Below are positions 35,189-49,435 of a stretch of DNA of 64,000 nt, piece by piece. Under the pieces are notes generated by a model. That model had not been told where the DNA came from and ran no database searches. It was given only the letters and a program-made list of their open reading frames with translations. This stretch comes from Methanocella paludicola SANAE. GTDB taxonomy: Archaea; Halobacteriota; Methanocellia; Methanocellales; Methanocellaceae. The position numbers and the translations under genes were made by a program. The stretch spans positions 372,001 to 436,000 of the forward strand of contig NC_013665.1 in NCBI RefSeq assembly GCF_000011005.1. Reading direction: 5' to 3'. Each line of letters begins with the position of its first letter. Within the stretch, counting starts at the first letter, position 1.

Positions 35189-35199
35189 AGTATTTATAC
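35189..35199 (+). promoter_or_regulatory. TATA box of the subtilase gene, with upstream direct repeats
   Basis: GTATTTATACT lies about 45-55 bp before the proposed start. Upstream, 35090-35125 contains the near-identical words ATAGCTAATTTTACT and TTAGCTAATTTCAGT, possible regulator sites in an unusually AT-rich stretch. Confidence 0.5.
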
Positions 35200-35242
35200 T
35201 ATAGAGTTATGTCTAGGCTTACTAGAGAAGGAGGAGTAAGCA

Positions 35243-36781
35243 ATTAAAAAACGAATATTCCTAGTCGCTGCAGTATGCGTCGTGCTACTGGCCAGCGCAT
35301 TGTTGGTAAATGCGAGCATACCGCTGACTAAGCCCTCCACGGATCTCAGCAGCGGCACCTATATTGTCGTTTTTAATGACAGCCAGGGCATGGCTGGCGC
35401 GCTGAGCGACCAGGTCTCTGCCTTCGCCGTCGAGAATAACGCGACGGTCAAATACAGGTATGACCTCATCAACGGCATGGCCATCGACGTCCCGACCGCC
35501 GACGCGGCCGCGAAGCTGAGCACTCTCAAGGGCGTGAAATACGTCGAGAAGAACATCGTATTCCACGTCACGCTCGACACGGGCAGGTCCATCGTCGGCG
35601 CCCCGCAGGTCTGGGACCTCGGGTACACCGGCAAGGGCATGAAGGTCGCCGTCGTCGACACCGGCATCGACGGCACCCATCCCGACCTCAAGGGCAGGAT
35701 CGTCGACTTCAAGGACTACGTTTCAGGCAAGACCACCGCCTACGATGACTTCGGCCACGGCACCCACTGCGCCGGCATCATCGGCGGCAGCGGCGCCGCC
35801 TCGAACGGCAAGTACAAGGGCGTTGCCCCCGAAGTCCAGTTCATCGGCGTCAAGGTGCTCGGCAAGGACGGCTCCGGAAGCCTGGACGCCATCATCGCCG
35901 GCCTGAACTATGCGGCCAAGAGCGACGCTAAAGTGATCTCGATGTCGCTCGGCTCGGACGAGCACTCGCAGTCCATGGACGACGCCGTTAACAACGCCGT
36001 AAAAGCCGGCAAGGTCGTCGTCTGCGCGGCAGGCAACAGCGGCCCTGGCTCGAAGACCATCGGCTGCCCCGCGGATACCCCCTCGGCCCTGACGGTCGGC
36101 GCCACCGACAAGAGCGATGCCATCGCTTCGTTCAGCTCCAGGGGCCCCAACAGGGACGGCACCGTCAAGCCCGACGTCAGCGCCCCTGGCAAGGACATCA
36201 TATCCTGCAGGGCCACGGGCACCAACGACCAGAAGGCCATCGACACCTACTACCTGTCGATGAGCGGCACCTCCATGGCCACCCCCATGGTATCGGGCTC
36301 CGTCATTCTGCTGCTGCAGAAGAAGCCGGACCTGACGCCCGCCGAGGTCAAGGACATCATGGAGAAGACCGCGAAGCAGCTCGGCTCCGGCGTCCCGAAC
36401 AATAACTTCGGCTACGGCAGGATCAGCATCGTCAACGCGATCAACTACCTGGACGGCAAGTATACGCCTCCGACCACCCCGTCGCCGACGCCAACCCCGA
36501 GCCCGAGCCCGTCTCCCTCCCCGTCGCCGAACCCCGGCAACCCGGGCAACCCCGGCTACCCTGGCTACCCGTACCCTGGATATCCGTATCCTGGCTACCC
36601 GTACCCCGGACAGCCGACCCCGACGCCTACGCCGACGCCCACGCCTGACCCGGGCAACCCCGGCTACCCTGGCTACCCGTACCCTGGATATCCGTATCCT
36701 GGCTACCCGTACCCGAGCTACCCCGGCTACCCGTACCCTGGTTACCCTTACCCGGGCTACTACGGCATTAGCGACGAATAA
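35243..36781 (+). CDS. Secreted subtilisin-like serine protease with Pro/Gly/Tyr-rich tail (ATT start)
   Basis: 512 residues. No ATG/GTG/TTG lies between the in-frame TAA at 35237 and GTG 35282, but ATT 35243 is 8 nt after a strong GGAGG and gives a textbook signal peptide (KKRIFLVAAVCVVLLASALL); GTG 35282 would cut it in half. A propeptide-inhibitor (I9) domain spans ~35-115. The S8 catalytic triad is D139 (VVDTGIDGTHPD), H172 (GHGTHCAG) and S344 (SGTSMATP). After residue ~410 comes a Pro/Ser/Thr linker and a PGYPYPGYP-repeat tail ending ISDE. Probably an exported or cell-wall-bound protease. Confidence 0.92.
   Translation: MKKRIFLVAAVCVVLLASALLVNASIPLTKPSTDLSSGTYIVVFNDSQGMAGALSDQVSAFAVENNATVKYRYDLINGMAIDVPTADAAAKLSTLKGVKYVEKNIVFHVTLDTGRSIVGAPQVWDLGYTGKGMKVAVVDTGIDGTHPDLKGRIVDFKDYVSGKTTAYDDFGHGTHCAGIIGGSGAASNGKYKGVAPEVQFIGVKVLGKDGSGSLDAIIAGLNYAAKSDAKVISMSLGSDEHSQSMDDAVNNAVKAGKVVVCAAGNSGPGSKTIGCPADTPSALTVGATDKSDAIASFSSRGPNRDGTVKPDVSAPGKDIISCRATGTNDQKAIDTYYLSMSGTSMATPMVSGSVILLLQKKPDLTPAEVKDIMEKTAKQLGSGVPNNNFGYGRISIVNAINYLDGKYTPPTTPSPTPTPSPSPSPSPSPNPGNPGNPGYPGYPYPGYPYPGYPYPGQPTPTPTPTPTPDPGNPGYPGYPYPGYPYPGYPYPSYPGYPYPGYPYPGYYGISDE
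36541..36714 (+). repeat. 66-bp direct repeat coding for PGY repeats in the subtilase tail
   Basis: Bases 36541-36606 recur at 36649-36714 (108-bp period, identical by eye), separated by a segment coding for PTPTPTPTP. The repeat codes for NPGYPGYPYPGYPYPGYPYP-type sequence, so tail length probably varies between strains. Confidence 0.85.
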
Positions 36782-47449: not shown

Positions 47450-47626
47450 ACTATTCCTCTATCACGCATTTACGCTTAAACTGTTAAATATTTTCATCTT
47501 ACATTATTTTATAAAAACTTTTATGCAGCTCCGGGCAAATTAGTTATAAATAATCATTAACAATCACAACCTTTATTTGTAACGATTGATAATTAATAAT
47601 TGTGAGCTAGCTCAGGAGGGTCAGCC

Positions 47627-49435
47627 ATCGATACAGCGCTAAACTATGACAAAGGTATTCCAACCATAAAACAGGGTAAGAACTGGCGAGCTAAGGCAGA
47701 GAACGGCGTTGAGATCGTCGAGATGATCGGCGATTGCAACGTCTGCTACGACGAGGCCTGCGGCAGCGGCTTCTGCTTTGACGACGTCAGGAAAGAGTTC
47801 GACTGGTACACTACGGGCAAGGTCAACATCGGCTACGAGGCCATCGACCGCCACGCGAAGTCCTGGCGCAAGAACAAAGTGGCCCTTTACTGGGAAGGCG
47901 CCGACGGGAGCGACCGGAAGTACACGTTCCAGGAGTTCAAGATACGCACCGATAAGTTCGCGAACGTGCTCCGGAAAGCGGGCGTCAAGAAAGGCGACCG
48001 CATCTTCGTCTACCTGCCCCGGATCCCTGAACTATACGCCAGCGCCATCTCGATCGCCAAGCTGGGCGCGATCTTCGCCCCGCTGTTCGGCGGCTTCAGG
48101 GCGGAGGCGGTGAGGGACCGCATCAACGATGCGGAGGCCTGCATGGTCATCACCACGCCCGAGATGAAGCGGCTGGGCATCGACCCCATACGGAAGGACA
48201 TTCCGTCCGTCAAGACCGTCGTGCTCTGCAACATCCCCCGGAACTACGACCTGGAGCCGGGCGACCTGAGCTACGACGCCGAGATGATCTACGCCTCGGA
48301 GGAGTTCGAGCCCGAGTGGTGCGACCTTGAAGATCCGGTGATCATGCACTACACGTCGGGCACGACCGGCAAGTCGAAGGGCGTCGTCCACGTCCACAAC
48401 GCCATGATCGGGCACTACATTACCACGAAATGGGTGCAGGACCTGAGGGACGACGACGTGTACTGGTGCACGGCTGACCCCGGCTGGGTTACGGGCACTT
48501 CATACGGCATATTCGGGCCCTGGCTGAACGGCGCCTCGCAGGTAGTGTATGCAGGCCGGTTCTCGCCCGAGGCCTGGTACTGGATCATCGACAAGTACAA
48601 GGTGACCGTCTGGTATACGGCCCCCACGGCGCTCCGCATGCTCATGAAGGGCGGCGAGGACGTCGTGAAGAAGTACCACCTGGACAGCTTAAGGTATATC
48701 ACGAGCGTCGGCGAGCCCCTGAACCCGGAGGTCATCCGCTGGGGCATGCGGGTCTACGGCCTGCCCATCCACGAGAACTACTGGATGACGGAGACCGGCT
48801 GTAACGTCATCGCCAACTTCTACGGCATGCCCCTGAAGATAGGCTCCATGGGTAAGCCCTTCCCGGGCATCGAGGCGGCGGTCATCGACGATAAGGGCAA
48901 AGTGCTGCCCCCCGGCGTGCCCGGCAACATCGCCATAAAGCCCGGATGGCCCTCCATGATGCGGAGCATCTGGAACAACCCTGCCAAGTACAACGAGTAC
49001 TTCCGCATTTCGGGCTGGTACATCACGGGGGACAGCGCGTTCATGGATGCGGACGGATACTTCTGGTTCACCGGCCGCATCGACGACGTCATCAAGACGT
49101 CGGGGGAGCGCGTCGGGCCCTTCGAGGTGGAGAGCGCGCTGCTCGAGCATCCGGCCGTGGCCGAGGCGGGCGTTATCGGCAAGCCCGATCCGCTGTACGG
49201 TAACGTCATCAAGGCCTTCATATCCCTGAAGCCCGGCTACGATGGCACGGAGGAGCTGAAGCGCGAGATCTCCGAGTCGGTAAAGAAATCCCTCGCGGCC
49301 CACGCGTTCCCCCGGGAGATCGAGTTCAAGGCGAGCCTTCCGAAGACCCGGAGCGGCAAGATCATGCGCCGCGTGCTGAAGGCGATGGAGCTGGGCCAGC
49401 CTCTGGGAGACCTGGCCACGCTCGACGACGAGTAA
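47627..49435 (+). CDS. acs: Acetyl-CoA synthetase (AMP-forming), ATC start
   Basis: 602 residues if started at ATC 47627. An in-frame TGA (47603) precedes, and no ATG/GTG/TTG occurs until ATG 47723, inside the protein. A perfect AGGAGG (47614-47619) lies 7 nt before ATC 47627, so this codon is the best start (alternative: ATG 47723, with no Shine-Dalgarno). AMP-binding motifs: HYTSGTTGKSKGVVHVH, WCTADPGWVTGTSYGIFGPW, WWMTETG-like YWMTETGCN, SGWYITGDSAFMD, RIDDVIKTSGERVGPFE, LPKTRSGKIMRRVLK with the acetylatable Lys. It makes acetyl-CoA from acetate. Confidence 0.93.
   Translation: MDTALNYDKGIPTIKQGKNWRAKAENGVEIVEMIGDCNVCYDEACGSGFCFDDVRKEFDWYTTGKVNIGYEAIDRHAKSWRKNKVALYWEGADGSDRKYTFQEFKIRTDKFANVLRKAGVKKGDRIFVYLPRIPELYASAISIAKLGAIFAPLFGGFRAEAVRDRINDAEACMVITTPEMKRLGIDPIRKDIPSVKTVVLCNIPRNYDLEPGDLSYDAEMIYASEEFEPEWCDLEDPVIMHYTSGTTGKSKGVVHVHNAMIGHYITTKWVQDLRDDDVYWCTADPGWVTGTSYGIFGPWLNGASQVVYAGRFSPEAWYWIIDKYKVTVWYTAPTALRMLMKGGEDVVKKYHLDSLRYITSVGEPLNPEVIRWGMRVYGLPIHENYWMTETGCNVIANFYGMPLKIGSMGKPFPGIEAAVIDDKGKVLPPGVPGNIAIKPGWPSMMRSIWNNPAKYNEYFRISGWYITGDSAFMDADGYFWFTGRIDDVIKTSGERVGPFEVESALLEHPAVAEAGVIGKPDPLYGNVIKAFISLKPGYDGTEELKREISESVKKSLAAHAFPREIEFKASLPKTRSGKIMRRVLKAMELGQPLGDLATLDDE

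Follow-up and report, generated by a model that had tools for sequence, protein, structure and literature searches.

The window analysed in this study is a 64,000-nucleotide stretch of the single-contig Methanocella paludicola genome (C1:372001-436000 of 2,957,635 bp), and it includes on its forward strand a subtilase gene of 512 codons plus stop (35243-36781). To judge by its sequence, the gene encodes a secreted S8 subtilase precursor of ordinary type. Its Peptidase_S8 domain (PF00082) covers residues 130-392 (E 6e-71, 239.5 bits against a cut-off of 21.8), and residues 39-108 form an Inhibitor_I9-like propeptide that, at 20.7 bits, lies just under the Pfam cut-off of 21.2. D139, H172 and S344, which we take to be the subtilase catalytic Asp/His/Ser triad, are invariant in an alignment of eight subtilase proteins. 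In these D/H/S residues and, apparently, in the layout of a putative signal peptide and an I9-like propeptide the protein resembles subtilase family S8 with I9 propeptide, whereas it differs from that family in its start codon and in its Pro/Gly/Tyr-rich C-terminal tail. The tail, encoded at 36463-36778, is made of repeated Pro/Gly/Tyr units (PGYPYPGYPYP) and is possibly a cell-surface or wall-spanning stalk.

At the 5′ end of the gene a Shine-Dalgarno (SD) sequence, AAGGAGGAG (35228-35236), is followed after a gap of 6 nt by the proposed start codon, AUU (35243-35245). The frame is closed upstream by an in-frame TAA at 35237-35239, found at the same 6-nt offset before the corresponding codon of three related subtilase genes (L002, L006 and L007), and the sequence reads GCA (35240-35242) between this stop and the ATT and AAA AAA CGA directly after it. 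Here and below AUH (ATH in DNA) stands for AUU, AUA or AUC, and ordinary start for ATG, GTG or TTG. The first ordinary start of the frame is GTG at codon 14 (35282-35284). When the ATT is taken as the start, the protein would begin with the putative signal peptide IKKRIFLVAAVCVVLLASALLVNAS (35243-35317), whose first residue is expected to be Met and whose pattern is conserved in relatives; a basic n-region, a hydrophobic core and a cleavage-like site are visible by eye, and only with AUH as the start. An earlier note on this DNA had described the strong SD, the nearby in-frame TAA and the loss of basic signal residues (KKR) that a start at the GTG would entail, and all three descriptions proved accurate. 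RNA structure around the start (35220-35290) is ordinary (z -0.05). Taken with the comparisons that follow, these features make AUU 35243 very probably the start codon of the subtilase.

Probable AUU and AUA starts in related subtilases

We compared the starts of 12 subtilase genes in four Methanocellaceae genomes, that of M. paludicola itself (G000) and G001, G002 and G003; about three further S8 places (G001:C1:149183, G002:C1:1800926 and G003:C29) lie outside this comparison. The earlier note had proposed initiation at the ATT and had raised the question of whether relatives carry ATG there. Indeed, 10 of the 12 genes, from all four genomes, have ATT (six) or ATA (four) at the same place instead of ATG, which supports initiation at this codon. 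Group A comprises the window gene (L001, ATT), its paralogue in the same genome (L002, 68%, ATT), L007 of G002 (ATT), L008 of G001 (ATT) and L006 of G003 (ATA). Group B comprises L003 of M. paludicola (ATA), L032 of G003 (ATA), L033 of G001 (ATA) and L116 of G002 (ATT), and a distant paralogue in G002, L118, also starts with ATT. The two genes with an ATG start are both paralogues from M. paludicola (L119, which is the same gene as L004, and L005).

The surroundings of these codons are similarly constant. GGAGG precedes the AUH codon in nine of the ten AUH subtilases, L118 having GGGGGT instead, and the spacing between SD and AUH is 6-8 nt in all ten. Between the upstream stop and the AUH codon, eight of them have no ATG, GTG or TTG; the exceptions are L033, with an ATG two codons before its ATA and merely 2 nt after GGAGG, and L116, where TTG, TTG and GTG occur in frame upstream of the ATT, without an obvious SD. 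Codons 2-13 show an excess of differences at the third position, with 51, 34 and 63 differences at positions 1, 2 and 3 in group A and 29, 13 and 39 in group B. The corresponding pN/pS values are 0.55 in frame versus 0.63 and 0.70 in the shifted frames for group A, and 0.46 versus 0.65 and 1.14 for group B. Together these figures give modest support to the translation of codons 2-13, the stretch being only 12 codons long and the contrast small in group A. Among outgroup subtilases, 13 of the 14 inspected (out of 80 loci) have an ATG, GTG or TTG either ahead of the signal-like segment or near its beginning, and the frame of the remaining one runs to a contig edge.

Probable AUH starts in other genes

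The earlier note had also called starts other than AUG, GUG and UUG very rare, a statement that needs qualifying for this genome, where we found further AUH starts, including one in the same window. This is the gene for an AMP-forming acetyl-CoA synthetase (acs; 47603-49435, forward strand), in which a TGA (47603-47605) and AGGAGG (47614-47619) precede a putative ATC start at 47627, the first ordinary start being ATG 47723; RNA structure at this start is likewise ordinary (z 0.32). In exact register with this ATC, and with a common Asn-Tyr at codons 6-7, the acs of G001 has ATT (L166) and that of G003 has ATG; the G002 gene also starts with ATG. The G001 gene has, in addition, in-frame TTG and GTG codons upstream. 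A HAD phosphatase gene of M. paludicola (L190:10235, minus strand) similarly has GGAGG before an apparent ATT start, as does its G001 orthologue (L214), in which the first ordinary start lies after the catalytic DIDGT; the orthologues in G002 and G003 start with ATG. A gene for a BKACE enzyme is present in two of the four genomes (L172 and L217) and in both lacks any ordinary start ahead of its Pfam domain; in the M. paludicola copy the candidate start at L172:6411 reads GGAGGTATCGTT-ATA.

Two other candidates were set aside, the ATC of L144, where a TTG 18 codons further along is a suitable start, and the ATT at L143:15823, whose frame scores poorly as coding sequence ahead of its first ordinary start. 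In G001, a 647-codon membrane protein (L230:18307, minus strand) may start at an ATC behind GAGGT.

Genome-wide enrichment

We searched 864 kb of the M. paludicola genome, consisting of the window and 40 further stretches with 712 ORF-genes called by codon usage, for codons with GGAGG 5-9 nt upstream, a stop close upstream and no ordinary start with a good SD. This strict filter retained 5 of 183 ATH codons versus 12 of 2447 other codons (Fisher p 0.0048), and three of those 12 share the SD of an ATH match. The five ATH codons are the putative starts of the window subtilase, of L003, of acs (ATC 47627), of the HAD phosphatase (ATT) and of BKACE (ATA). The same filter also picked out a CTG, the likely start of the presenilin-type SPP protease gene described below. 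A looser filter gave no enrichment of ATH after an SD in this genome (p 0.47) and nothing significant in the other genomes; because the strict filter was chosen after such looser ones, the genome statistic is supportive only. In 400-kb samples of G001 (316 genes) and G002 (318 genes) the strict filter found no ATH match. Of the known AUH genes of these two genomes, L007 is cut by the end of its sampled stretch, the acs of G001 misses the strict filter because of its in-frame upstream TTG and GTG, and the others fall outside the samples. Of two control genomes, G038 gave no ATH match among 299 genes and G020 gave one among 305, with an ordinary ATG ten codons later. A scan of the four Methanocellaceae genomes for GGAGGN{5,9}ATHAARAAR yielded, in that of M. 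paludicola, six matches versus four for the reversed pattern; just two of the six were identified as starts, those of the subtilases.

The case for AUH starts thus appears strong by virtue of orthologues and paralogues, not of the genome test. Extrapolation from the five ATH genes, found in a sample of 29% of the genome, suggests a number on the order of 15-20 in M. paludicola, with wide error.

A putative weak start behind a strong Shine-Dalgarno sequence

We infer that ribosomes initiate at AUU 35243, and propose the following mechanism. The strong SD would dock the 30S subunit so as to set AUU in the P site, where the ordinary CAU initiator tRNA would pair with the A and U of the codon and mismatch its third base, and the protein would then begin Met-KKRIFLV..., at reduced efficiency. 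The mismatch would lower the yield several-fold, perhaps with modulation by aIF1, a factor described as destabilising initiation complexes on non-AUG mRNA (PMC6237735). By analogy with bacterial cases it is plausible, as the earlier note suggested, that the AUU start keeps subtilase expression low; that a low yield from AUU has been selected in this protease family seems to us to have not quite an even chance.

Alternatively, the AUU may be a genuine start without regulatory meaning, if Methanocellaceae, given a strong SD, tolerate drift in the third base of AUG, so that ATT, ATA and ATC are near-neutral. Such drift fits the finding of AUH starts in the genes for acs, the HAD phosphatase and BKACE, which are housekeeping genes of unrelated kinds, and since the orthologues of acs and the phosphatase in G002 and G003 have ATG, both states evidently occur. 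The subtilases themselves argue otherwise, for AUG stands at this place in none of the nine group A and group B genes of the four genomes, and across the subtilase tree the third base of the start shifts between T and A, never via G. Because AUG is absent although T and A interchange, the comparison suggests that AUG is disfavoured at the subtilase start in both groups; these changes, numbering about three, do not suffice to establish selection against it. We therefore regard drift as a serious contender that nonetheless falls below an even prospect.

A broader extension of the proposed weak start can be offered only tentatively. In Methanocellaceae, AUU, AUA and AUC might constitute an inherited class of deliberately weak starts behind strong SD sequences, used by secreted proteases and some metabolic genes. 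All of them would respond jointly to the start-codon stringency that aIF1 imposes, which would be the archaeal equivalent of IF3/AUU control in bacteria. In that reading, the class would have escaped notice since gene finders as a rule accept no starts other than ATG, GTG and TTG.

Alternative initiation sites

Translation could instead begin at the downstream GTG 35282, with the stretch upstream of it untranslated. GTG is a standard start and the one that annotation programs would pick; it is, however, without an SD of at least 4 bases, and its product, MLLASALLVNAS, would lose the basic n-region. The position of the first downstream ordinary codon also varies among relatives, from codons 14 (L001), 10 (L002), 11 (L006), 26 (L007) and 14 (L008) in group A to codons 13 (L032), 7 (L033), 14 (L003) and 6 (L116) in group B, in every case past the basic signal residues and, for the ATG of L007, past the whole signal peptide. 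In group A, by contrast, the SD spacing and the AAA AAA codons are conserved at the ATT or ATA. A start at the GTG accordingly strikes us as improbable.

Upstream of the gene, a TATA-box-like sequence, TATTTATA (35191-35198), follows a purine-rich GGAAAG. Four of the five group A genes (L001, L002, L007 and L008) share a TATTTA-type box at -53 to -51; it is absent from L006 and from the same place in group B genes. The usual spacing between an archaeal box and the transcript start is about 25 nt. The subtilase mRNA would thus start at about 35220, with a predicted leader of some 20-25 nt that holds only the SD before the ATT. This arrangement bears on an out-of-frame ATG at 35209, the first codon of a 12-codon ORF ending in TAA 35245-35247, which might feed ribosomes to the subtilase by frameshift or by termination-reinitiation. 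Inspection by eye showed same-frame ATG ORFs that cross the SD in L001, L002 and L007, as such coupling might lead one to expect, but L006 is without one and the ORF of L008 stops at a TAG before the ATT, in another register. Furthermore, with the box at about -52 and a spacing of 25 nt, ATG 35209 is placed upstream of the expected transcript start and would therefore fall outside the mRNA. A contribution from this ORF is very improbable.

Initiation machinery

The use of all three AUH codons would be explained if the genome encoded a special initiator tRNA bearing an isoleucine anticodon. RF00005 gave 48 tRNA matches in the M. paludicola genome; ARAGORN assigned a type to 47, one of which was reassigned by eye, and L324 looks degenerate. 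Three tRNAs have a CAT anticodon (L286, L295 and L313), and the single tRNA of initiator type is L295, with anticodon CAU, an A1-U72 end and three G-C pairs, the latter two features being what we take as initiator marks. No initiator tRNA with an anticodon other than CAU was found among the 48 matches, and the tRNA-Ile(GAU), L301, is elongator-like and without initiator marks, so that a dedicated AUH initiator is highly improbable. The ATT differs by a single base from ATG, but an error in sequencing, or a mutation of this strain, that hides a true ATG can in practice be excluded, because genomes assembled independently of one another, and paralogues too, have ATT or ATA at this position.

The D-arm region of L301 (G000:C1:2032990-2033089, minus strand) is interrupted by about 30 inserted nt, and ARAGORN miscalled this tRNA as Ala(CGC). 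Each of the four genomes has two SUI1/aIF1 genes (L135-L138 and L139-L142). One copy opens in every genome with GTG or TTG, a possible self-limiting start, whereas its companion opens with ATG.

Relation to known non-AUG starts

M. paludicola is a methane-making archaeon from rice paddies, and it apparently shares AUU and AUA starts with the secreted protease genes of its relatives. The non-AUG start, conserved across this family of archaeal proteases in the genomes compared, is apparently a variation on the known combination of a weak start and a strong SD. Documented AUU and AUA starts have so far amounted to a handful of bacterial genes. In Staphylococcus aureus, cvfC1 (AUU), ccpN (AUA) and citZ (AUA) are reported to be expressed at about 10% of the AUG level in poor medium, ccpN reaching up to 30% in rich medium; the unusual start and extended SD of cvfC1 and ccpN are conserved among relatives, and both starts were mapped with retapamulin-arrested ribosomes (PMC13009471). 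These genes and the subtilase alike have AUU or AUA behind a strong SD. They differ in that S. aureus is a bacterium with IF3, that other genes are concerned and that its starts were measured, whereas the archaeal start is deduced. Similarly, the AUU starts of Escherichia coli infC and pcnB, a feature they have in common with the subtilase, have been tied to low or regulated expression (PMC9410913). The product of infC is the very factor that discriminates against AUU, while the subtilase is a protease outside the initiation machinery, and therefore no direct feedback loop of the infC type is expected; the subtilase start may nonetheless work like infC-type control, though not a member of it.

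For archaea, a review names AUG, GUG and UUG as start codons (PMC7531240). Some databases annotate prokaryotic AUA, AUU and AUC starts (PMC5397173), and single annotated AUH cases may therefore exist. According to the genome paper of M. paludicola, GLIMMER and GeneMarkS were used to predict proteins, and the start sites were checked manually (PMC3146512); its main text uses none of the terms subtilase, protease and start codon. We found no report of AUU, AUA or AUC starts in Methanocella in an open-access library that lacks most subscription papers. If a conserved archaeal AUH set is real, it would imply that the aIF1/aIF1A/aIF2 machinery accepts third-base mismatches in natural genes with a strong SD, and it would provide natural substrates on which archaeal start-codon fidelity can be tested. 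The N-termini of proteins with AUH starts are probably mis-annotated; standard gene finders would shorten the secreted proteases, which would then seem to be without export signals.

Non-standard starts of another kind are known from a methanogen, Methanosarcina mazei, for which Ribo-seq assigned CTG starts to 5% of unannotated small ORFs; in the accessible part of that report the start codons given are ATG, TTG, GTG and CTG, not ATT or ATA (PMC11456600). In M. paludicola, the gene for a presenilin-type SPP protease (signal-peptide peptidase, PF06550) likely starts at a CTG behind GGAGG (L143:13850, minus strand), and its orthologues L168-L170 appear to start with TTG, TTG and GTG.
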